From IMG/VR virus record IMGVR_UViG_3300028581_002271, positions 1-25,701 of that record: a stretch of 25,701 bases of DNA; one strand, written 5' to 3'. The notes below the pieces were generated by a model. The model had not been told where the DNA came from, made no database searches, and worked only from the letters and a program-made list of their open reading frames with translations. Positions 2,850 through 24,908 of this stretch are shown in pieces. Numbering within the stretch: the first letter of the stretch is position 1; each line of letters opens with the position of its first letter. The stretch comes from a virus. The position numbers were made by a program, and so were the translations under genes.

Positions 2850-2923
2850 GTCACAATAGTGTGACCCAACTGTATGAATTGCCGCATGGGATTCATACAC
2901 AACTCGCTAAAAAGGAGAAAACT
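2850..2923 (+). promoter_or_regulatory. ROSE-like RNA thermometer in the hsp20 leader (candidate)
   Basis: The leader can fold into three successive hairpins. Hairpin I pairs GTCAC 2850-2854 with GTGAC 2861-2865. Hairpin II is a 9-bp stem, TGTATGAAT 2871-2879 with ATTCATACA 2891-2899. Hairpin III pairs CUC(G)CU 2903-2908 with the Shine-Dalgarno AGGAG 2913-2917 around a four-A loop, with G2906 bulged. The anti-Shine-Dalgarno contains UCGCU, matching the U(U/C)GCU signature of ROSE thermometers. Those are known upstream of small heat-shock genes in proteobacteria, with the last hairpin covering the ribosome binding site. The spacing from AGGAG to ATG is six bases. Hairpin III is short, consistent with melting on mild warming. 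Folding was done by eye. Confidence 0.65.
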
Positions 2924-3370
2924 ATGAACAATAGAGCACTAACTATCTTTAATCAACTGAGACCCGTTACAGTGGGCTTTGATAACTTCTTTGATCATTT
3001 CGAAAGAATGTTTGAAGGAGATATAATGGCTCCTGCTGTGAACTATCCACCATACAATATTGTGAGAACTGGCAGAAATCAGTTCAATATTGAATTGGCA
3101 TTGGCAGGTTACAACAAGAAAGACATTGAAGTGACTGTGGAAGAAGGCCAATTGACTGTGAAATCCAAAAGAGCGGACAGCACACAATCAAAAGACGCCA
3201 ATGGTGAGATACTGCACAAAGGCATCGCCAGTAGATATTTTGAAAGATCGTTCACCATCGCTGATGATATCGAAATCAAAGGCGCTGAGCTGAAGGATGG
3301 TCTTTTGACCATATCACTGGAAAAGATAGTACCTGAGTCTAAAAAACTTAGAACCATCGAAATCCTATAA
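2924..3370 (+). CDS. hsp20: Small heat-shock protein Hsp20 (IbpA-like)
   Basis: A 148-residue ATP-independent holdase chaperone of the alpha-crystallin/Hsp20 family. The N-terminal part carries the FDNFFDHFERMF segment seen in IbpA-type proteins. The alpha-crystallin domain runs from about residue 40 (YNIVRTGRNQFNIELALAGY) through EGQLTVKSKR to the conserved GLLTISLEK near residue 130. A C-terminal I-x-I-like motif (TIEIL) closes the protein. The start at 2924 is preferred over the in-frame ATG at 2861 because AAAGGAG lies directly before it and 2861 falls within the structured leader. Hsp20 genes are common in marine T4-like phages and are thought to help virion assembly or protect host proteins. 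Own promoter, own leader and a 3' hairpin suggest a single-gene transcript. Confidence 0.93.
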   Translation: MNNRALTIFNQLRPVTVGFDNFFDHFERMFEGDIMAPAVNYPPYNIVRTGRNQFNIELALAGYNKKDIEVTVEEGQLTVKSKRADSTQSKDANGEILHKGIASRYFERSFTIADDIEIKGAELKDGLLTISLEKIVPESKKLRTIEIL

Positions 3371-3378
3371 TACAAATC

Positions 3379-3402
3379 TAAGGGCGTGGCAACACGCCCT
3401 TA
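3379..3402 (+). terminator. Strong hairpin after hsp20, possible terminator
   Basis: A perfect 10-bp stem (TAAGGGCGTG with CACGCCCTTA) is capped by a GCAA tetraloop. It lies nine bases after the hsp20 stop and abuts the late-like box of clpS. No run of T follows, so it may act as a transcript-stabilising 3' end or processing structure rather than an intrinsic terminator. Confidence 0.6.
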
Positions 3403-3417: not shown

Positions 3418-3720
3418 ATGAGCAAAACCAAAACAGATGTGGTGATTGATGAGAAGGTTCAGCAGATAGTGTTGGAACCAGAACCAGTCAAGGTCATCAT
3501 GCTGAATGATGATATCACACCGGTGGATTTTGTGGTGGAATTATTAATCAAGATATTCAAACACACACAAGAGTCAGCCAAAGAAATCACACTCAAAATA
3601 CACACCGAAGGCAGCAGTGTGGTGGGAGCATACAGTTTCGAAGTGGCCGAACAGAAAACCAAAGAAGCCATAGAAGAATCCAGAAGCAGAGGATTTCCTC
3701 TACAAGTAAGAATGGAATAA
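3418..3720 (+). CDS. clpS: ClpS adaptor (N-end rule substrate selector)
   Basis: 100 residues, close to the normal ClpS length. ClpS binds proteins with destabilising N-terminal residues and delivers them to ClpAP. The core motif LNDDITPVDFVVELL matches E. coli LNDDYTPMEFVVEVL. The substrate-pocket residues are present with an offset of four: Asn30, Asp31, Asp32, Thr34 and His62 correspond to E. coli Asn34, Asp35, Asp36, Thr38 and His66. The E. coli gate residue Met40 is Val36 here, which could relax or shift residue preference. The C-terminal half (AEQKTKEA ... FPLQVRME) also matches. A phage clpP lies at 7358, but no ClpA or ClpX is in the window, so host unfoldase would be needed. The next gene starts two bases after the stop. 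Confidence 0.93.
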   Translation: MSKTKTDVVIDEKVQQIVLEPEPVKVIMLNDDITPVDFVVELLIKIFKHTQESAKEITLKIHTEGSSVVGAYSFEVAEQKTKEAIEESRSRGFPLQVRME

Positions 3721-3721
3721 T

Positions 3722-4252
3722 ATGAGCCTCAAAGATCTCACTTGGGAACATCACAAAAACGCAGAGCGTCAAAAGTTTGTGAAGGTGATGTTTTCAGGCA
3801 GCATAGATCCCAAACTCTACGCAGAATTTTTATTCAATCAACATCAAGCCTACGATCTGTTGGAGGCCATGTCTATGGCACATGGATTGTTCAATGACAT
3901 GCCTGATGTGCGAAGAGCTCCAAAAATTTATGAAGATTTTAAAGAGTTGTGGCAGAATGATGTGTCGTTAGAAATCAAAAACAGCACTAAAGAATATCTT
4001 GCACATCTTAAAACAATCAAAGACAACCCCACAGCACTGATGGCGCATATCTATGTGCGACACATGGGTGATCTGTCAGGTGGCCAAATGATTCGCAAAA
4101 AAGTGCCAGGCATGGGTAAAATGTTTGATTTTGAAGACAGAGACAAGGCCAAAGAAGTTATCAGATCCAAGATCAATGATTCAATGGCAGATGAAGCAAA
4201 AAAATGTTTTGAATTTGCCACTGCCTTGTTTAAAGAAATGATCAATGACTAA
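3722..4252 (+). CDS. ho1: Heme oxygenase
   Basis: 176 residues. Heme oxygenase opens heme to biliverdin IXalpha, CO and Fe2+ using reduced ferredoxin or a similar donor. The proximal heme ligand is His11 in the HxxAE motif (TWEHHKNAER). The distal-helix signature GDLSGGQ lies at residues 116-122 within YVRHMGDLSGGQMIRKK. The length is shorter than cyanobacterial Ho1 (about 240), as expected for compact phage forms. It overlaps the small ORF at 4245 by eight bases and is followed by a bilin reductase, so the two enzymes of bilin synthesis are in one operon. Phage heme oxygenases are known from cyanophages and from uncultured marine viruses carrying pcyX. Confidence 0.93.
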   Translation: MSLKDLTWEHHKNAERQKFVKVMFSGSIDPKLYAEFLFNQHQAYDLLEAMSMAHGLFNDMPDVRRAPKIYEDFKELWQNDVSLEIKNSTKEYLAHLKTIKDNPTALMAHIYVRHMGDLSGGQMIRKKVPGMGKMFDFEDRDKAKEVIRSKINDSMADEAKKCFEFATALFKEMIND

Positions 4253-4427
4253 AAAGAAAAAATTCAAAGACTTCCCGGGTAATCTTATCAAAATAAAAGT
4301 GTTGGAAGATGAAATTGACTATTTTAAAACACAGATTCAAGAACACGACACAGGTCATATCTACACCACCATAGACACACTGAAAGACAGAGTGAGAGAA
4401 CTCAAAGGTCTACCAGAAGAATATTAG
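4245..4427 (+). CDS. Small charged helical protein between heme oxygenase and bilin reductase
   Basis: 60 residues, rich in Lys, Glu and Asp, with a heptad-like stretch (IKVLEDEIDYFKTQIQEHD) suggesting a short coiled coil. The ATG overlaps the end of the heme oxygenase gene by eight bases, and the bilin reductase begins one base after its stop, which implies translational coupling of all three. No function is recognised. Its fixed place inside the pigment operon makes it a candidate partner or simply a hitchhiker. Confidence 0.75.
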   Translation: MTKKKKFKDFPGNLIKIKVLEDEIDYFKTQIQEHDTGHIYTTIDTLKDRVRELKGLPEEY

Positions 4428-4428
4428 C

Positions 4429-5124
4429 ATGAGCAATATCTGGAATATCCTCATAGAATGCAAGGACGATATCATCAAAGAATTTGATTTGCGAGGTCAA
4501 GAAATTCAAGAACCCGGCATGAGCAGATTCAATCAACCTGAAAATGGTTGGATCAATAGAGTGTGGCAGACCGAACACTGTCGTCGCTGTCACATAGATG
4601 TGGTGGATGCTAGACAAAGCAAAGGTCTTTGGATGATGCATGTGTGTGTATTTCCCAATCTGCACAACAACGGTCCCATATATGGATTTGATGTCATAGC
4701 AGGAGAGCACAAGATGACAGGTGCATTCCATGACTTTTCACGCAGTTCAGGAGGAGAACAGCATCCACTGATAGAATGGTATCATCAAGCAGTGTCAGAG
4801 TTTGTGCCTAGTAAGAAAAGAAAATTGCCAGAGTGGGCATTGAATATATTTTCAGGCAGCATGATTGCTGCAGGCAATGTGCAAACTGATGAAGAAGCCA
4901 CAGCCATAGTGAATCTTGCAGTGAACAATCTACGAGTGTATTTTGACAGCATAGGACAATATGCTCACACTGCTAAGGAAGCAGACACCATTGAGGCACA
5001 GAACTATTACTGTCACAATCAGCAACAGAATCCACACACACCCAGAGTGATGAAGAGTTTGGGTCTGGCCGAAGCAGATGTGGAATTGTTCTGTACTGAT
5101 GCACTATTTCCCAAAATACGATAA
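4429..5124 (+). CDS. pcyX: Ferredoxin-dependent bilin reductase, PcyA/PcyX-like
   Basis: 231 residues, of the ferredoxin-dependent bilin reductase (FDBR) family, which reduces biliverdin to phycobilins. The core block runs MMHVCVFPN ... IYGFDVIAG ... MTGAFHDFS. Aligned by eye to Synechocystis PcyA, His71 matches the catalytic His88 and Asp88 matches Asp105 (same 17-residue spacing). PcyA Glu76, needed for 18-vinyl reduction, appears as Asp57 in CHIDVV. Retaining the His/Asp pair while losing Glu76 fits PcyX, the PcyA-related viral enzyme reported to make phycoerythrobilin from biliverdin, better than PcyA itself. The symbol is therefore provisional; PebS or another FDBR remains possible. It directly follows heme oxygenase and a small ORF in one operon. 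Confidence 0.85.
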   Translation: MSNIWNILIECKDDIIKEFDLRGQEIQEPGMSRFNQPENGWINRVWQTEHCRRCHIDVVDARQSKGLWMMHVCVFPNLHNNGPIYGFDVIAGEHKMTGAFHDFSRSSGGEQHPLIEWYHQAVSEFVPSKKRKLPEWALNIFSGSMIAAGNVQTDEEATAIVNLAVNNLRVYFDSIGQYAHTAKEADTIEAQNYYCHNQQQNPHTPRVMKSLGLAEADVELFCTDALFPKIR

Positions 5125-5175: not shown

Positions 5176-5204
5176 TTGACAGACTGTGCCAATGTTGTTA
5201 TAAT
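5176..5204 (+). promoter_or_regulatory. Consensus sigma70 promoter
   Basis: TTGACA (5176-5181), a 17-base spacer and TATAAT (5199-5204): a perfect sigma70 consensus. Only six bases separate the -10 box from the ATG at 5211, so the transcript should begin at or next to the start codon. A T8 tract at about 5156-5163 precedes it. Confidence 0.85.
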
Positions 5205-14662: not shown

Positions 14663-14725
14663 AGAGGACTTGGTATAATCCCTCTTTAAAAATTCTTCTA
14701 CCATATTGAAAGGTAAAATATGGTA
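14663..14725 (+). promoter_or_regulatory. Structured leader before queD with two mutually exclusive folds (candidate)
   Basis: Fold A: AGAGG (14663-14667) pairs with CCTCT (14681-14685). Inside its 13-base loop, TGGTA (14671-14675) can pair with TACCA (14699-14703), giving an H-type pseudoknot with an A-rich linker (TTTAAAAATT). Fold B: TACCATATT (14699-14707) pairs with AATATGGTA (14717-14725), a 9-bp stem that buries the queD ATG and holds the Shine-Dalgarno GAAAGG in its loop. TACCA is used in both folds, so they exclude each other. The AGAGG ... CCCTCT-plus-A-tail layout recalls preQ1-I riboswitches, but the U after AGAGG is A here and the usual ACAC is absent. Folding was by eye. Confidence 0.45.
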
Positions 14726-15244
14726 AAATATTACAGCACAAAAACATACGGCAACGACAGAGGTTTGAGTTGTGCTTTTAGACAATGGCGCAGTACTCAT
14801 TCGCATTGTTCATTATTGCATGGATATTCCATTGGCATCAAACTGATCTTTGAATCAGAAACATTGGATGATCGCAACTGGGTCATGGACTTTGGTGGAC
14901 TCAAAGCATTCAAAGAATGGAGTGAATACATGTTTGATCACACATTATTGATTGCACAGGATGATCCACACTTAGATAAGTTTAAAAAATTAGCAGAGTT
15001 GGGCACCCACAGTGAAGGAGGAGTTTGTGACATAAGAATTGTGGAAGCAGTGGGCTGTGAAAAGTTCAGTGAACTGGTGTACAATGAGATGAACAAAATT
15101 TTAAATACTTTCAAAGCAGGCAAAACATACAAACTGCCCAACGGCAAAGGATTTGATTGCAGATATCCTGTGGGGCAGGGAGTGCGATTGAAATCTGTGG
15201 AAGTATTTGAACACGCTGGAAATTCTGCTGTCTACGAAGCCTAA
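14720..15244 (+). CDS. queD: QueD-like 6-pyruvoyl/6-carboxytetrahydropterin synthase
   Basis: 174 residues, T-fold family. QueD makes 6-carboxytetrahydropterin from dihydroneopterin triphosphate in the queuosine/preQ0 pathway; PTPS enzymes use the same substrate. The sequence starts YYSTKTYGNDRGLSCAFRQW. The zinc region has THSHC followed by HGY at 34-36, where most family members have HGH, so one zinc ligand is changed or supplied by His27/His29. DFGGLKAF, FDHTLL (catalytic Asp-His) and VEVFEHAGNSAVYE are further family motifs. FolE, QueE and QueC are not in this window. The ATG at 14720 has GAAAGG before it and lies in the predicted leader stem. Similar proteins are common in cyanophages. 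Confidence 0.9.
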   Translation: MVKYYSTKTYGNDRGLSCAFRQWRSTHSHCSLLHGYSIGIKLIFESETLDDRNWVMDFGGLKAFKEWSEYMFDHTLLIAQDDPHLDKFKKLAELGTHSEGGVCDIRIVEAVGCEKFSELVYNEMNKILNTFKAGKTYKLPNGKGFDCRYPVGQGVRLKSVEVFEHAGNSAVYEA

Positions 15245-16014: not shown

Positions 16015-17067
16015 ATGATCAAAAGAATAGGTTTCTGCTGTCAATGGTTTCATCATGATAGAACTCTTAAAAAGAAACAACTGGAAGAATTAGAACGTCC
16101 TTACAATACCAGAGCTACCACAGTGCGTTGGTTAAATGAACACAAGGAACAAGCTGAAGAAAAACTGGCATTTGTGTTCAAACACAACATTGATGGCATC
16201 AAAAATTTAATATTAAAAGTATCTGAACTGCCCGTGAGCAGAAGAATGTGTAGAATATCATCACCCATACTGCCAGTGGCCACTGAAAACACTTGGAGAT
16301 ACTATTGGGACAAGCCAGACATAATCAAGTATTGCGAACAACACTTTGCTGAAGCAGGCGATTTGGCTCGCAAACACAATGTTAAAGTATCTTTCCATCC
16401 AGGACAATTCACGGTGTTGGCATCGGATAATCCAGACATAGTGGAAAGAAGCATAGACGAATTTGAATATCATGTGCGTATGGCGAAGATGATGGGGTTC
16501 GGTAAAAAATTTCAAGACGGTTGCAAAATCAATGTACACATATCCGGTCGTCAAGGACCAGAAGGCATTGTTAAAGCTCTACCTAGATTATCACCCGAAG
16601 CACGCAATCTTATCACCATAGAGAACGATGAAATGGGTTGGGGATTGGATGCCACACTTAAATTGGAGAAACATTGTGCTCTTGTATTAGATATACATCA
16701 TCATTTGATTCGAGACGAAGAATACATACTTTCCAGTGACGACAGGGTAAAGAGAGTGATAGACAGTTGGAGAGGAGTGCGACCCACTATGCATTATTCT
16801 TATTTTAGAGATGAAGCCTTAATGCCAGCATTTGATGAATCCACAGTTCATATGATGCACAAAAACATGTTGCCCATCAAAGACATGATCACATTGGGCT
16901 GTCAAAAGGTAAAATTAAGATCTCACAGTGATCTGTTTCCCAACAAGGCACAGAATGAATGGGCTTTGAGTTTTTTAGAAAACTTTGATATTCAATGCGA
17001 ATGCAAGAGTAAAAACCTAGGAGCAGAGCAACTTTGGAATCAAGCACAAACACTGGGTCTGCTGTAA
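16015..17067 (+). CDS. uvsE: UV-damage endonuclease UvsE/UVDE
   Basis: 350 residues. UVDE nicks DNA 5' of UV photoproducts in an alternative excision-repair path. The TIM-barrel family motifs are all present: RIGFCCQW at the start, RISSPILPV near 80-88, VSFHPGQF near 124-131, INVHISGRQG near 174-183, ENDEMGW near 203-209, LDIHHHLI near 225-232, MHYSYFR and the Lys/Arg-rich VKLRSHSD. These His, Glu and Asp residues supply the metal cluster of the family. UvsE genes are known from marine T4-like phages exposed to sunlight. Own promoter with a palindrome at the -35 box; the stop codon TAA is part of the late box of the next gene. Confidence 0.92.
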   Translation: MIKRIGFCCQWFHHDRTLKKKQLEELERPYNTRATTVRWLNEHKEQAEEKLAFVFKHNIDGIKNLILKVSELPVSRRMCRISSPILPVATENTWRYYWDKPDIIKYCEQHFAEAGDLARKHNVKVSFHPGQFTVLASDNPDIVERSIDEFEYHVRMAKMMGFGKKFQDGCKINVHISGRQGPEGIVKALPRLSPEARNLITIENDEMGWGLDATLKLEKHCALVLDIHHHLIRDEEYILSSDDRVKRVIDSWRGVRPTMHYSYFRDEALMPAFDESTVHMMHKNMLPIKDMITLGCQKVKLRSHSDLFPNKAQNEWALSFLENFDIQCECKSKNLGAEQLWNQAQTLGLL

Positions 17068-17999: not shown

Positions 18000-18347
18000 A
18001 TGGCTGTAATCACTGTCACTGAAAGAGCAATTGAAAAGATTCGAGAGTTGTGTGATCACAACCACAAGTATGCTGTGCGACTCAGCATCAAGGGTGGTGG
18101 CTGTGCAGGCTATTCATATGATTGGGGATTTGCTGATCAGTCAGAAATTGCACCCTCAGACGAGCTGTTAAACTTTGGTGATGGAGCCAAGTTCACCATA
18201 GATGCTGCCAGTGTGATGTATATCCTAGGCACTGAGCTGGACTATGTGCATGAAGTGTTTGGTTCACAATTTCAAATTAAAAATCCCAATGCCAAGAGCG
18301 CATGTGGCTGCGGTGAGAGCATCAGTTTTGAAAAGGAGATAGCATAA
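18000..18347 (+). CDS. A-type Fe-S cluster carrier (IscA/HesB-like)
   Basis: 115 residues, normal for IscA/ErpA/HesB. The three conserved cluster-binding Cys are Cys35 (KGGGCAGYSY), Cys102 and Cys104 (ACGCGESI). TVTERAIEKIREL is the usual N-terminus. These proteins pass iron-sulfur clusters to target apoproteins. Marine phages are known to carry such genes. The fibre gene starts three bases after its stop, so it is probably co-transcribed with a virion gene from the late-like box at 17971, which is odd for a metabolic gene and hints at a late or assembly-linked role. Start chosen by GGAG four to seven bases upstream. Confidence 0.92.
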   Translation: MAVITVTERAIEKIRELCDHNHKYAVRLSIKGGGCAGYSYDWGFADQSEIAPSDELLNFGDGAKFTIDAASVMYILGTELDYVHEVFGSQFQIKNPNAKSACGCGESISFEKEIA

Positions 18348-18350
18348 CAC

Positions 18351-21300
18351 ATGGCATATCAAAATATCAATATTGGAGTGGAAGGCAATGACGGCACAGG
18401 TGATAGCATACGTGATGCGTTTAGGAAAGCCAATGAAAACTTCACAGAACTGTATGCAGTATTTGGAGCCGGCGGTCAGATAGCATTCACATCGCTCAGT
18501 GACACACCTGATGTGTTAGGCATAAGAAACATTCCCATTAGCAACACCACAGGCACAGCATTTGAAATGCGTGAGATCACTGGCGGCACAGGAATCTCAG
18601 TCAGTTATGCCACACCAGGTGACATTATTATTTCCAACACAGGCAGTGAATTGGTGGATGATCTTTCACCCACACTGGGAGGACCGTTGAATGCTAATGG
18701 ATTGCCCATTGGTAATGCAGCAGTCAGCACCCAAGCTGCAATAGATTTCAACAACACTCACGGCACTGCCATAACCATAGACAATTTGGTAATCACCAAA
18801 GGATACGCAGATCAAAGATATATCAAACTGGGTGGAGGAGCGTCAGGCGCAGCAGGTCAGATCAGAGTGAGAAGTGAGCCTGTGGATGCCACAGCCTACA
18901 CCAAGACCATAGCCAGTTACACAGCAGGCAATGCAGTGGTCACCGCTCACGGTTATGACAGCAGTGTGAATGGTTTAGAAGTGATCTACAACACCACTGG
19001 CTCAGCAGCTTCAGGATTGGTGAATGGCAGCACATATTACATCAGATATGTGAATGATAACCAATTGAGTTTTCACAGCAGTTTTGCTCAAGCCACCAAC
19101 AACGATGACATCACCAGAATAAAAATCACTGTGGCAGGCGGCACAGGTGTTCAGTCATTCACAGATGCTGCTTATGATGACACATTGGCAGGATTCTTCC
19201 TCAGCGATGAGGCCATGCCAAGAGAATCCATTGTGAGACGTCAAGGAGACACCATGACAGGTGCTCTTTATCTCAATGATCATCCAGGAGATTTGTCAGG
19301 ATTAGGTGCACCCAATGGTGCAGATGATTTGCAAGCTGCCACCAAATTCTATGTGGACAACACCAGCTACGCTTCCGACACCAATCTATTCGTCAGCACC
19401 AAAGGTGATGATAGAATGGATGGAGTACCACCAGACAAGGTAGGCAGATCATTCAGTTACGCATACAAAACAATCAATGCTGCTTGTGTGAAAGCAGAAG
19501 AGATCATGCTGGCCACTCCGGTGGAGCTGGGACCTTACACTCAAACCATCACTTATGATGATGGAGCCAGTAATTCCATAGTGGTCACAGAAGGTGTCAC
19601 CAGCGGCAGCGGTTACAACAATGTGAAATTGTTGATAGACGCCAACAGAACATTCATTATCAAACAGATGATAGGTTTTGTGAATGCTACCTATCCCAAC
19701 TTTACCTATGATGAATTGATTTGTGAAAGAGATTTAGGATATATTTTAGATGGTATTGTGATCGATGTGTTGGCAAATCTCAACTCCAATGTGAGAAGTA
19801 TTCAAGCAGGTATCAGATACTACAGCAATGTGAGTGGTGCCAAGGCCATCAATCAGCAACTGACTGAAACATTGGCAGGCATCAACTATGCCAAATCAAT
19901 CACCAACACTGTGCTGCAAAACTTGGCTGTGTCACCCATCTACAACGCTGGCTTCACTCAAACATTTGATATGCCCAGCACTGTGAACAACACAGGTAGA
20001 TCATCAGTGGGAGCAAAATTTGACATCATCACCAACATCATTCAAAACGGTATCAGCAGTGCTCCGCCAGAAGTGGAAGGCAGCACATACACCATGACCA
20101 TCAGCAACGGTGGATTTGGCAATGTGGATCAGAACGATCCCAACAATCAAGATTTGATTCCAGGCAAATTGATCCGAGGCAAGACCACTGGTGCCATAGG
20201 TAGAATTGTTTCTGTCGCAGCAGGCGGCGCAGCAGACACAGTGCAAGTGATATTGATTGAACCATTGGAGTTTTTGGTGGGTGAAGGTTTGGAATTTTCT
20301 TCGCAATTCAAACGCAACAACATCACCATACGAGTGGAGAGCGGTACCTATCTGGAAGATTTCCCCATCAGAGTGCCAGATGGAATCAGCATCAAAGGTG
20401 ATGAATTTAGACGAGTGATCATACGACCCAAGAATAGAATTTCACAGTCTCAGTTTGCCAACACATATTTCTACAGAGATCTAGTGATAGATGGTCTCAC
20501 AGTGACCACCACCAACTTTGGCAGACATTATCTAGTGAATCCCACTGCATTGGTCAACACTGGTGCCAGTTATGTGAACGTGGGTGGTTATGACACTCAG
20601 GCCTTGACCATATTAAATGCCAAACCCGCCATACAAAATGCTGTGGTGAATTATGTGAATTCATTGTTGAGTCCCAGCTCGTTGAATGCTGCCAATGAAG
20701 CAAGGAATCGCAGAGAGACTGGTACAATTGTGGACGCCATATTTTCAGATTTAAAAACTGGTGGCAATGAAAAAATATTGGAAGTTCAAGGCAATTTTTA
20801 TAACTCAGGACTGATTGCTCAAGAACAAGCAGGCATCAGCTACATTGCTACCTATATCAATGCCTCCGTGATTGCATCTGCTTCTGCAACCATTAAAAAT
20901 ATTGTCACTGCACAGATGGCTCGTGTGGTGTATGCATTCAACGGCTCATACAATCCTCCCAAACACAACAGAAACATGGATGTGTTCCTCATGGGCGAGG
21001 CCACCATCATAAGAAATGTATCTGTGCAAGGTCATGGTGGATTCATGTGTGTGTTGGATCCTGCTTCACAAGTACTTAACAAGTCACCCTACATTCAAAC
21101 AGCTTCCAGTTTTTCTGCCAGCATCAACACTCAGGCATTCCGAGGTGGTATGTTTGTGGATGGATCTTCAGGCAACATACCCATCAACATCACTTCAGTG
21201 GTGAACCCATTTGAATTGGAAGTGGACAGCAATGCTGGTCAAGGATTATTCATAAGAAAACCACTCACTCCCACTGCGTTCTACATTGATGGTACGAGAT

Positions 21301-24300
21301 ACCAAGTGGATGCAGTCAAAGATTATGACGGACCAGCAGGCACAGCCACTTTGTTATTGAATGCCAGCAGCAATGCAGGTCTGGGTTTTGTGATCACTTC
21401 ACCCATACCTTACAGCACCACACTGCAGACAGCAGGCAATAGATCCATGTTGGCCAATGACTTCACACAGGTGAATGATTTGGGTTATGGTCTATTGGTC
21501 ACCAATGGTGCATTGTCTGAACAGGTCAGCACATTCACTTACTACTGTCACGCTGCCTACATGTCATTGAATGGTGGACAGATCAGAGCATTGAACGGCA
21601 GCAATGCCAATGGTGTGTATGGTTTGGTGGCTCAAGGTTCAGATCCTTTGGAAGTGCCAGATGATGTGGATCTAGTACGCAACATGGCACAAGTGGCCAA
21701 AGTGTATGATGATGGTGGTGTATATGATCACCCATTGCTGGCATTGAGCATTTATGTGTACGATTTGGAATACATACCTCACAACAGATCTGAAATTGAA
21801 ATTGATCATGATCCTCTGGATTCTTCTCTCACTCTGGGAGTGCAAAGATATGAAGTGGCCAGCGTGGAACTGATATCACCACCCATCACAGTGACAGGTC
21901 CTTCTGTCACACGAGATGGCACAGTTTACAAATTAAATCTCAGCACTGCCGGCACTGACAATGCTTCCACCACAGGACTCAAAGCAGTGTTGGCCAATCA
22001 ACAGAATGTGACCATCAGAGCCAGTCAATCGCATCAATTCAGCAATGTGGGCAATGTGTCTCCCACACGTCCCAGCACAGCATTGGTATTCTATGATGAC
22101 ACCACTGATATAGTTTATAGAACCATAGCATTCAATATCACCAATGCAGTGGGCACAGCACTGCCAGCCAACAACGTGATTGCTTCTTTTGACACCACAT
22201 TTGACTTTGTGAGATTGCAAATCAGACCTGCATCAGCTGTGTTGAGCACTTATGCTGGTGCTGGAACAACCATGGGAGCCACAGCAGGTGACGTGGTGTT
22301 GGCCATTGAACCGATCACTGAAGCTTTGGACATCACTAGATTGAACACAGGCAACATGAGCTTTGGTTGGGCAGGCAAAACACACAGAGTCACCAGTTAT
22401 GTGGACCGAGGCACTTATGCCACTGTGAGCATTGTTCAACTCAGCAATATTAATATTTCAGGACCAGCAGCAGGTATTCAAGAACCTTTGGTGCGTGGAC
22501 CCGGCACAGAAAACATTGTGTTGCGTTGCGGACTGTTGGCCAATGCCAATGCTGACATCACCATTAAAATTTCCACTTGTAGAGCCACAGGTCACGATTT
22601 CTTAGACATCGGCACTGGTGGATTCAACACCAGCAATTACCCCAATAATATTTTTGGTGATCCCACAGCATTGCCTGTGCAAGACAATGAAGTGGATGAA
22701 CGAGGCAAAGGACGTGTGTTCTTTGTGAGCACAGATCAAGACGGTGTATTCAGAGTGGGTAGATTCTTCACAGTGGATCAAGGCACTGGCACTGTGACAT
22801 TCTCAGCCAGCATTGCACTCAGCAACTTGGATGGATTAGGATTCAAACGAGGTGTGGTGGCAGCAGAATTTTCAACAGACTCGGCCATGACAGACAATGC
22901 TTCCGACACCATACCCACAGAATCAGCTGTGCGCGGTTATGTGGATAGAAGATTACATTACACACAAGGCAGTTCATTGGTGGGCAATCCTATTGGACCT
23001 GGTGCCATAGCCAGAGATGGAACCACCAGTTTCACTGCCAACATCAGCGCAGGTGGATTCAAATTGATCACACTGGGTGCTCCTAGCACCGCATTGGATG
23101 CTGCCAACAAAGCCTATGTGGACAATACTTTGTATGCCAGCGATCAAGTGGAGAATTTAAGAAACGTGGACATCGCAGGATTTGCAGCCAATCAGATATT
23201 GGTGTTCAACGGCAGACAAAGAATATTCACCACACCAGAAACAGGCGGATTGTTTGTGGTGGGCAACACCATCACAGGCAGCAGCACTGGCACAGTGGCC
23301 ACCATAGTGGATTATGAATCAGTGGTATTGCCAGGTTCATTGAATGCAAGACGCATAACTTTTGCAGCAGTGTCAGGTCCTGGCTTCAGCACATTGGATT
23401 CAGTCAGCACAGGAGGCGGAGTGGCTGCACAAGTGATAGATGGACCCATGAACGAATTGGCCAATGGAGTTATGTCAGGCAGCACAGACATCTCAATCAC
23501 TGCCACAAGAAGCACTGCACAAACAGATTTAAACTTGCAAATAGTGGCCGGCAGCATCATCAACGCAGATGTGAACGCAGCCGCTGCCATACAGCAGAGC
23601 AAGTTGGCCATGCAGGCTGCCACCACCAGAGCCAATGCCACAGGCATCAGTCAGGCAGATCTTGGATTGGCCAGCTTTGACTCGGGAGATTTCACAATTA
23701 CCAACGGTTGGGTCTCATTGGCCACAGCTGGAGTGGATCTGGCAGATTTGCCCAATCTCACACAGTATCAGACTTTTGGTAAGAACACAGTAGGTTCAGG
23801 TGCTCCCACCATCGTCAGCTATGCAGATGTGGTCAGCAATGGACTGGGATTGGAAGACGGAGATTTTGTAACAATTTTATCAGCTGCATCAGATCCAGGT
23901 GAAGCTTTGATCAAAACTGGCACAGGCACCTACGGTATCACCAATGTGAGCACCACAGGAGAAGTCAACAGCATTGTGAAGTCAGATGCCACAGGTATCG
24001 TGGATGTGGCACAGTTGAAAGTGGATGGATTCAAATTGATCGACAGCAACACTGGTACCAATACCTCCATATTCACTACCAGAGGCAATGTGGACTTCCT
24101 CACAGCACAAGGCAGCACTGTGGCAAGCACCACATTGGTATTCACAGGAAGAAAATTTGAATTTGGTGGCAGCACAGTGAGCAATTCACCCACTGCAGAC
24201 ACACTGCAATCAGTGCTGGCCAGTGAAGGCCGAGGCATTGCCACTCCTCACTTGTTTACAAAATTTATTGAAAGCGATGTGGTTGAATCAGGCGGCACAG

Positions 24301-24908
24301 GTATTGCATTCGGTACTGGTGGAGGCACATTTGCAGGCGCAGGCAAGATCAGCATTGTGTTGGCAGGAGATGTGCCATTCATATTCGCTGGGGACGCAGA
24401 TGATTCCACCAGCGTGACTCCAGGTATGTATCCCGATACCGACAATGCTTACACCATTGGTAATGCTTCAGCCAGATATGCCACCATATTTGCCACCACA
24501 TTCCACGGCACAGCCACCAATGCATTGTACGCTGACTTGGCAGAGAAATATTTGGCAGACCAGGAATATGATTCAGGCACTGTGTTGCAGTTTGGTGGTT
24601 CGAAAGAAGTGACCATTACAACTGAAGCCAACACCAACAAGATAGCAGGTGTGGTGACCACAGCACCAGCATTTTTGATGAATGATGCATTGAATGAATT
24701 CAACACAGTGGCAGTGGCACTGCAGGGTCGTGTGCCATGCAAAGTGATAGGAAAAATTTCCAAAGGTGACATGCTGGTGGCCAGTGCCACAGCAGGTGTG
24801 GCTTGTGCAGCTCAAGGTGAAATTAGAATGGGCACAGTGATTGGTAAATCGCTGGAGCATTATGATTCAGATCAAGTGGGCGTGATTGAAATCGCGATAG
24901 GTAGATAA
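18351..24908 (+). CDS. Giant tail-fibre or baseplate-attached structural protein
   Basis: 2185 residues. Residues 1-45 (NINIGVEGNDGTGDSIRDAF ... NENFTELYAVFG) form a module shared with the next gene. Near 301, DTMTGALYL is followed at about 325-345 by ADDLQAATKFYVDN and SYASDTNLF; a second such module is at about 1567-1600 (GGFKLITLGAPS, DAANKAYVDN, LYASDQ). About 346-900 contains a pectate-lyase-like beta-helix region (FVSTKGDDRMDG, YAYKTINAACVKAEEIM, then RVESGTYLEDFPIRVPDGIS). The C-terminal 160 residues (TDNAYTIGNASARYATIF, ADLAEKYLADQEYDSG, KIAGVVTT) resemble fibre-end domains I remember from cyanophages, sometimes compared with autoprocessing or chaperone domains. Ser/Thr/Asn/Gly-rich throughout. 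Likely host recognition. Confidence 0.88.
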   Translation: MAYQNINIGVEGNDGTGDSIRDAFRKANENFTELYAVFGAGGQIAFTSLSDTPDVLGIRNIPISNTTGTAFEMREITGGTGISVSYATPGDIIISNTGSELVDDLSPTLGGPLNANGLPIGNAAVSTQAAIDFNNTHGTAITIDNLVITKGYADQRYIKLGGGASGAAGQIRVRSEPVDATAYTKTIASYTAGNAVVTAHGYDSSVNGLEVIYNTTGSAASGLVNGSTYYIRYVNDNQLSFHSSFAQATNNDDITRIKITVAGGTGVQSFTDAAYDDTLAGFFLSDEAMPRESIVRRQGDTMTGALYLNDHPGDLSGLGAPNGADDLQAATKFYVDNTSYASDTNLFVSTKGDDRMDGVPPDKVGRSFSYAYKTINAACVKAEEIMLATPVELGPYTQTITYDDGASNSIVVTEGVTSGSGYNNVKLLIDANRTFIIKQMIGFVNATYPNFTYDELICERDLGYILDGIVIDVLANLNSNVRSIQAGIRYYSNVSGAKAINQQLTETLAGINYAKSITNTVLQNLAVSPIYNAGFTQTFDMPSTVNNTGRSSVGAKFDIITNIIQNGISSAPPEVEGSTYTMTISNGGFGNVDQNDPNNQDLIPGKLIRGKTTGAIGRIVSVAAGGAADTVQVILIEPLEFLVGEGLEFSSQFKRNNITIRVESGTYLEDFPIRVPDGISIKGDEFRRVIIRPKNRISQSQFANTYFYRDLVIDGLTVTTTNFGRHYLVNPTALVNTGASYVNVGGYDTQALTILNAKPAIQNAVVNYVNSLLSPSSLNAANEARNRRETGTIVDAIFSDLKTGGNEKILEVQGNFYNSGLIAQEQAGISYIATYINASVIASASATIKNIVTAQMARVVYAFNGSYNPPKHNRNMDVFLMGEATIIRNVSVQGHGGFMCVLDPASQVLNKSPYIQTASSFSASINTQAFRGGMFVDGSSGNIPINITSVVNPFELEVDSNAGQGLFIRKPLTPTAFYIDGTRYQVDAVKDYDGPAGTATLLLNASSNAGLGFVITSPIPYSTTLQTAGNRSMLANDFTQVNDLGYGLLVTNGALSEQVSTFTYYCHAAYMSLNGGQIRALNGSNANGVYGLVAQGSDPLEVPDDVDLVRNMAQVAKVYDDGGVYDHPLLALSIYVYDLEYIPHNRSEIEIDHDPLDSSLTLGVQRYEVASVELISPPITVTGPSVTRDGTVYKLNLSTAGTDNASTTGLKAVLANQQNVTIRASQSHQFSNVGNVSPTRPSTALVFYDDTTDIVYRTIAFNITNAVGTALPANNVIASFDTTFDFVRLQIRPASAVLSTYAGAGTTMGATAGDVVLAIEPITEALDITRLNTGNMSFGWAGKTHRVTSYVDRGTYATVSIVQLSNINISGPAAGIQEPLVRGPGTENIVLRCGLLANANADITIKISTCRATGHDFLDIGTGGFNTSNYPNNIFGDPTALPVQDNEVDERGKGRVFFVSTDQDGVFRVGRFFTVDQGTGTVTFSASIALSNLDGLGFKRGVVAAEFSTDSAMTDNASDTIPTESAVRGYVDRRLHYTQGSSLVGNPIGPGAIARDGTTSFTANISAGGFKLITLGAPSTALDAANKAYVDNTLYASDQVENLRNVDIAGFAANQILVFNGRQRIFTTPETGGLFVVGNTITGSSTGTVATIVDYESVVLPGSLNARRITFAAVSGPGFSTLDSVSTGGGVAAQVIDGPMNELANGVMSGSTDISITATRSTAQTDLNLQIVAGSIINADVNAAAAIQQSKLAMQAATTRANATGISQADLGLASFDSGDFTITNGWVSLATAGVDLADLPNLTQYQTFGKNTVGSGAPTIVSYADVVSNGLGLEDGDFVTILSAASDPGEALIKTGTGTYGITNVSTTGEVNSIVKSDATGIVDVAQLKVDGFKLIDSNTGTNTSIFTTRGNVDFLTAQGSTVASTTLVFTGRKFEFGGSTVSNSPTADTLQSVLASEGRGIATPHLFTKFIESDVVESGGTGIAFGTGGGTFAGAGKISIVLAGDVPFIFAGDADDSTSVTPGMYPDTDNAYTIGNASARYATIFATTFHGTATNALYADLAEKYLADQEYDSGTVLQFGGSKEVTITTEANTNKIAGVVTTAPAFLMNDALNEFNTVAVALQGRVPCKVIGKISKGDMLVASATAGVACAAQGEIRMGTVIGKSLEHYDSDQVGVIEIAIGR

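Follow-up and report, generated by a model that had tools for sequence, protein, structure and literature searches.

Why should a phage whose host is probably not photosynthetic encode enzymes that turn heme into a bilin? The question is raised by a 25,701-nt stretch of viral DNA (IMG/VR record IMGVR_UViG_3300028581_002271; herein the window), which carries genes for a heme oxygenase (HO), a 60-residue protein (ORF60), and a ferredoxin-dependent bilin reductase (FDBR). Phycobilin synthesis by phages of non-photosynthetic bacteria was called enigmatic in 2024 (PMC11480375).

Organization of the cassette

The three genes lie exactly where the initial annotation had placed them, downstream of genes for a small heat-shock protein and the protease adaptor ClpS (Table 1). 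HO and ORF60 overlap by 8 nt at the HO stop, and a single nucleotide lies between ORF60 and the start of the reductase, so that coupling of HO through ORF60 to the reductase, as proposed in that annotation, is likely. Because the ClpS stop codon (3718-3720) is 1 nt ahead of the HO start, the transcription unit very probably begins one gene further upstream and reads ClpS-HO-ORF60-PcyX. A perfect sigma-70-like promoter match lies 3' of the cassette and 5' of the next gene; a search of the window for late-promoter motifs gave no excess over chance.

Table 1. Features of the window (positions refer to the window; empty cells, no entry)
Feature	Position	Strand	Evidence or remark
HSP20-type small heat-shock protein	2861-3370	+	Pfam HSP20 1.8e-17; likely true start ATG 2924
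10-bp hairpin TAAGGGCGTGGCAACACGCCCTTA in HSP20/ClpS gap	3379-3402		Possible terminator or boundary; consensus match only
ClpS, ClpAP protease adaptor	3418-3720	+	Pfam ClpS 4.3e-27
HO; heme to biliverdin, presumed IXalpha isomer	3722-4252	+	Pfam Heme_oxygenase E 7.5e-21
ORF60 (60 aa), predicted two-helix hairpin, phage small-protein family	4245-4427	+	AF2
PcyX-type FDBR; biliverdin to phycoerythrobilin (predicted)	4429-5124	+	Pfam Fe_bilin_red (PF05996) E 1.2e-16
Sigma-70-like promoter match, TTGACA-17-TATAAT with TG, perfect consensus	5176-5204	+	Consensus match only
PTPS/QueD-like protein	14720-15244
UvdE UV endonuclease	16015-17067
Fe-S cluster carrier (IscA/ErpA type)	18000-18347
2185-aa ORF, may be virion structural protein	18351-24908

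Comparison with five relatives gives dN/dS values of 0.03 to 0.07 for PcyX, 0.07 to 0.16 for HO, and 0.01 to 0.15 for ORF60, the last range covering only those comparisons in which the ratio is defined. With ratios of 0.01 to 0.16 wherever they could be computed, all three are, by this measure, maintained proteins.

The AlphaFold2 (AF2) model of ORF60 is a two-helix hairpin (pLDDT 75, pTM 0.50). Scanning viral contigs with an alignment of its family (A3) returned 471 matching stretches; among the 80 that were kept, 58 loci had full flanks, and 30 of these have neither HO nor FDBR within 3 kb. A role for ORF60 as a specific component of the bilin pathway was thus rejected, and we regard ORF60 as a probable passenger with a phage role of its own. 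Elsewhere among the relatives, HO and PcyX have nothing between them or are separated by a tryptophan (Trp)-halogenase-type flavoenzyme gene (11 loci), a nitrilase-like gene, or another gene. Since its contents vary in this way, the gap looks like a cargo slot rather than the site of a halogenation step, and bilin halogenation was rejected. The halogenase-family gene (L077:6502-7992; also L053-L056, L073, and L078-L082) encodes a flavin-dependent enzyme (PF04820, E 4e-92).

Identity of the reductase and heme oxygenase

Among solved structures, the closest relative of the reductase is PcyX_EBK42635 (Protein Data Bank [PDB]: 5owg; E 1e-83, 55% identity), whereas PcyA is matched only at E 8e-15 and 20 to 27% identity. 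The putative active site comprises His55, Asp57, His71, Asp88, and Asn201, which align with His74, Glu76, His88, Asp105, and Asn219 of PcyA; the columns agree with the residue assignments of the initial annotation. Asp57, His71, and Asp88 are invariant across 28 aligned phage PcyX sequences, and all five residues are kept in 72 of 74 FDBRs of the lineage in a separate scan whose contigs partly overlap with those of the alignment. The two exceptions (L306, from 5867 onward, and L313, from 5827 onward) have Asn57 and Ile201; they possibly form a different product and may correspond to a PcyA like that of phage CB_2.

In a tree of the family, the window reductase falls inside a large group of phage PcyX sequences; 5owg and the Pelagibacter phage Mosig form a clade of their own (support 99/96), and every PcyX lies on one side of a branch supported at 97/98. 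Alphaproteobacterial PcyA, green-algal PCYA, and CB_2 were left out of this tree, and its long outgroup branches are flagged. The AF2 model of the reductase (pLDDT 81) has 5owg as its best fold match, with a TM score of 0.90 by target length. The protein therefore combines the FDBR fold and family with Asp at the Glu76 column, the His88/Asp105 pair, grouping with PcyX, and a phage location adjoining HO. It has Asp57 in place of the catalytic Glu76 of PcyA, and it is set apart from PebS by low identity, by His71 where PebS has Asn, and by its position in the tree. The assignment to PcyX, rather than to cyanophage PcyA or PebS, is thus firm in sequence, residues, tree, and predicted fold, as the initial annotation had suspected. 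That the enzyme is really a PcyA making phycocyanobilin is very improbable: PcyA is the nearest cellular family, and the CB_2 phage enzyme did turn out to be a PcyA (PMC11480375), but the Asp57 column, the difference in identity, and the grouping with PcyX all point away from it.

Published PcyX carries out a four-electron reduction and yields the pink pigment phycoerythrobilin (PEB; PMC11480375). By analogy, PEB is the likely product here, although the characterized enzyme (5owg) belongs with Mosig to a sister clade outside the sub-clade of the window reductase. The earlier description of an enzyme that stops short of 18-vinyl reduction is apt as regards the vinyl group, but the reaction is not a truncated one, PcyX being a four-electron PEB enzyme.

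Among 84,980 genomes of bacteria and archaea, PcyX was matched four times, each time on a phage contig that lies within a MAG and shares the phage gene order. This is consistent with PcyX being a phage gene, and PcyX as a cellular gene was rejected. One genome (G321), of the same class as MAG G025, has two very divergent FDBR-family proteins at separate sites (L109:1474-2160 and L112:1474-2193).

The HO also matches solved heme oxygenases. It has the proximal histidine (His11) and the distal-helix GDxxGG motif (GDLSGGQ) of biliverdin-forming, HO-1-type enzymes, both noted in the initial annotation; of 80 aligned HOs, 79 keep His11 and nearly all have GDxxGG(Q). One HO copy (L074:7416-7985, on a contig shared with L287) lacks the proximal His and has a broken GDLSGGQ motif, while the adjoining PcyX is intact.

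Phage lineage, host, and conserved gene order

A 43-kb contig (G007) covers bases 1-25358 of the window at 99.996% identity. Cassette-bearing relatives are found on contigs of 148, 357, 364, and 383 kb and on a 335-kb contig binned in a MAG, and the long syntenic contigs span 335 to 383 kb. The DNA polymerase of one relative (G002) is nearest to those of jumbo phages, namely Sinorhizobium phage Phosso (469 kb, 50%), Vibrio phage 2.275.O, and Escherichia phage 121Q. None of the Mosig TerL, portal, capsid (MCP), and sheath queries matched the incomplete contigs G002, G006, or G007 by tblastn; judged from these comparisons, the window belongs to a huge T4-like phage lineage and not to the Mosig/HTVC008M pelagimyophage type of the published marine cassettes. 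It is a marine huge phage, and its host is probably a non-photosynthetic bacterium.

Other features of the lineage were noted in passing. Four phage contigs are binned into bacterial MAGs (L083, L084, L085, and L086), the largest being the 335-kb PBPT01000016.1 (L085) in a Neomarinimicrobiota MAG. Curli-type csgF and csgG genes and a FecR-domain gene occur downstream of PcyX (L061:10566-11546, L064:9105-9572, L064:11292-12449, and L084:4750-6188); curli-type genes were reported earlier from pelagimyophages and an OM43 phage. G002 also encodes a protein with CHASE2 and adenylate/guanylate cyclase domains (L093:1624-3552), a possible cyclic-nucleotide-making sensor in a phage contig.

Permuted alpha-type tmRNA genes are present on three close contigs (65 to 117 bits; L099:13742-14086, L095:9640-9992, and L092:3211-3562); that of L099, on the contig 99.996% identical to the window, precedes the window start by 4 kb. 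Most Alphaproteobacteria, as well as some Gammaproteobacteria and Cyanobacteria, have tmRNAs in two pieces, and such tmRNAs are commoner in marine phages (PMC9004378). Mosig, the one cultured PcyX phage identified in this analysis, infects Pelagibacter, and the predicted host of CB_2 is the alphaproteobacterium Methylocystis. Taken together, the tmRNA type, the host of Mosig, and the CB_2 prediction suggest that the host is probably alphaproteobacterial.

To define the surroundings of the cassette, the viral collection was scanned with ClpS alone (alignment A5). Across the best 80 loci (ClpS identity 50 to 100%), HO follows ClpS in all 80, an FDBR is present in 75, the remaining five ending soon after HO, and HSP20 is present in 75; clustering at 95% identity sorts the 74 full-length FDBRs into 55 groups. 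The order HSP20-ClpS-HO-FDBR thus recurs across a lineage of huge phages. Since the nearest ClpS copies come from one lineage, an unrelated neighbor, a 514-aa membrane protein (alignment A6), was used as a second bait, giving 45 loci whose downstream flank is 5.5 kb or longer. HO and FDBR occur in 21 of these, always both and always with ClpS, and neither was seen alone; eight loci have HSP20-ClpS without the pair, and 16 have none of HO, FDBR, and ClpS nearby. The joint presence in 21 of 21 loci and the absence from eight HSP20-ClpS loci indicate that HO-FDBR is a two-gene unit inserted behind ClpS or lost from there.

Near the tmRNA genes, close relatives encode ClpS, ClpP, and HSP20, and G002 has a ClpA-like ATPase (L089:1061-3307, minus strand) and GroEL-like and DnaK genes (L094). 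Together with the tmRNA, these make up a phage complement of trans-translation and proteolysis genes.

Purpose of the cassette

ALA synthase (TIGR01821) is encoded on six of 24 cassette-bearing contigs (545 to 573 bits; cut-off 338.6). In G005 the gene is about 1 to 2 kb away from the HO-PcyX pair, and in G021, whose PcyX is 97% identical to that of the window, it is approximately 27 kb upstream; the latter distance is beyond the end of G007. Neither the window nor the 43-kb G007 has an ALA synthase gene, and for the window phage the enzyme is suggested by its relatives. Escherichia coli hemB, hemC, hemD, hemF, and hemH queries gave no credible match in eight phage contigs, and for these steps a phage-encoded middle of the heme pathway was rejected in those contigs. 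From its gene content, the lineage tends to own the first step of the pathway and the steps from heme to bilin.

We consider it probable that the cassette makes PEB in the infected cell and that, in a non-cyanobacterial host, its purpose is the bilin itself. Host heme would be opened by the phage HO, yielding biliverdin, to which the PcyX-type reductase would add four ferredoxin electrons to give PEB, both steps being predicted from family and intact active sites; a ferredoxin gene was searched for in the cassette contigs and found only in Mosig. Both genes stand behind phage HSP20 and ClpS and are probably co-transcribed with ClpS. The lineage tends to open the tetrapyrrole pathway at both ends, at the entrance by ALA synthase (in relatives) and at the exit by HO and PcyX, with the host supplying the middle. 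The bilin may serve as a soluble pigment or antioxidant or as the ligand of an as-yet-unrecognized protein, and iron release would be a likely by-product.

The iron itself could instead be the point, with HO freeing it for phage iron enzymes in iron-poor water and PcyX merely disposing of biliverdin. The window does encode 2OG-Fe(II) oxygenase and an Fe-S carrier, and several 2OG oxygenases adjoin HO-PcyX in Mosig; a ferrochelatase annotation next to the Mosig cassette gave no Pfam match and was given no weight. Yet ALA synthase in six relatives spends material on more tetrapyrrole, HO never occurs without FDBR in the membrane-protein scan, and the PcyX active site is complete and under strong selection, so this explanation is rather unlikely. 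Iron recovery, one of the uses floated in the initial annotation, accordingly survives as a by-product and is weakened as sole purpose, since ALA synthase in the relatives favors bilin production over salvage alone. A phytochrome-like photoreceptor of host or phage, another use proposed there, is a decidedly doubtful destination for the bilin. PEB lacks the 15,16 double bond that phytochrome switching needs. Searches of 24 related contigs found no GAF domain, phycobiliprotein, bilin lyase, CpeT, or CpeS (one sub-threshold phycobilisome match, E 0.011, was taken as chance), and three MAGs that carry cassette contigs, and that are not established hosts, have no PHY domain; on the other side, CB_2, a huge freshwater phage, has a PcyA able to supply Cph1 in E. 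coli (PMC11480375).

These searches bear equally on a cyanobacterial host, in which the cassette would support phycobilisomes. Cyanophages do carry HO with PcyA or PebS genes, but the FDBR tree, the lack of phycobilisome, CpeT, and CpeS genes in those contigs, the alpha-type tmRNA, and a G002 polymerase nearest to that of a Sinorhizobium jumbo phage make this scarcely credible; together with the host of Mosig, they uphold the earlier view of a non-cyanobacterial phage. A further, quite unlikely, possibility is that HSP20-ClpS-HO-PcyX is one working unit in which ClpS/ClpA/ClpP and tmRNA tie bilin or heme chemistry to proteolysis directed by the phage. The protease might, for example, remove host heme proteins while HO and PcyX clear the freed heme; alternatively, a bilin might act on the proteolysis machinery.

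Returning to production of the bilin for its own sake, the recurrence and maintenance of PcyX in a widespread huge-phage lineage, together with ALA synthase elsewhere in the genomes of relatives, narrow the question toward product formation over iron salvage alone. From its fixed place behind ClpS, the cassette is probably expressed along with this proteolysis adaptor, and there are more than 200 related sequences on which to test ideas.

The HO-PcyX cassette is of a known kind, PcyX being a published phage PEB synthase. New relative to the literature are its occurrence in a lineage of marine huge phages, its constant position behind HSP20-ClpS, and the ALA synthase of this lineage, although an earlier report of a huge-phage context in the original PcyX papers (Ledermann and colleagues, 2016 and 2018) is possible. 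PcyX_EBK42635 and Mosig belong to the same family as the window PcyX, have its active-site residues, Asp55 of 5owg corresponding to Asp57 here, and form its sister clade. In Mosig (Pelagibacter phage EXVC030M), a 141-kb pelagimyophage whose structural genes had no tblastn match in the window relatives, HO is directly upstream of PcyX with no ORF60 and no adjoining HSP20-ClpS annotated, whereas the window has ORF60 between them. The vAlaS-vHemO-vPcyA/X cassettes of Wegner et al. 2024 combine ALA synthase, HO, and FDBR in one phage, as in the window lineage, and the “broken cassette” described there matches the pattern found here; unlike the window lineage, those contigs grouped with pelagimyophages by gp13, and the main text makes no mention of ClpS (PMC11480375). 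CB_2 (527 kb; Wegner et al. 2024) is a huge phage like those of the window lineage, but its FDBR is a PcyA and lacks the aspartate typical of PcyX. Cyanophage PcyA (P-SSM4, S-SSM4, and P-SSM7) is likewise a phage FDBR, 20 to 25% identical to the window PcyX, and keeps Glu76; Synechocystis PcyA also has Glu at the column of Asp57. PebS of P-SSM2, at 20% identity and with Asn at the His88 column, is a phage FDBR that also makes PEB.
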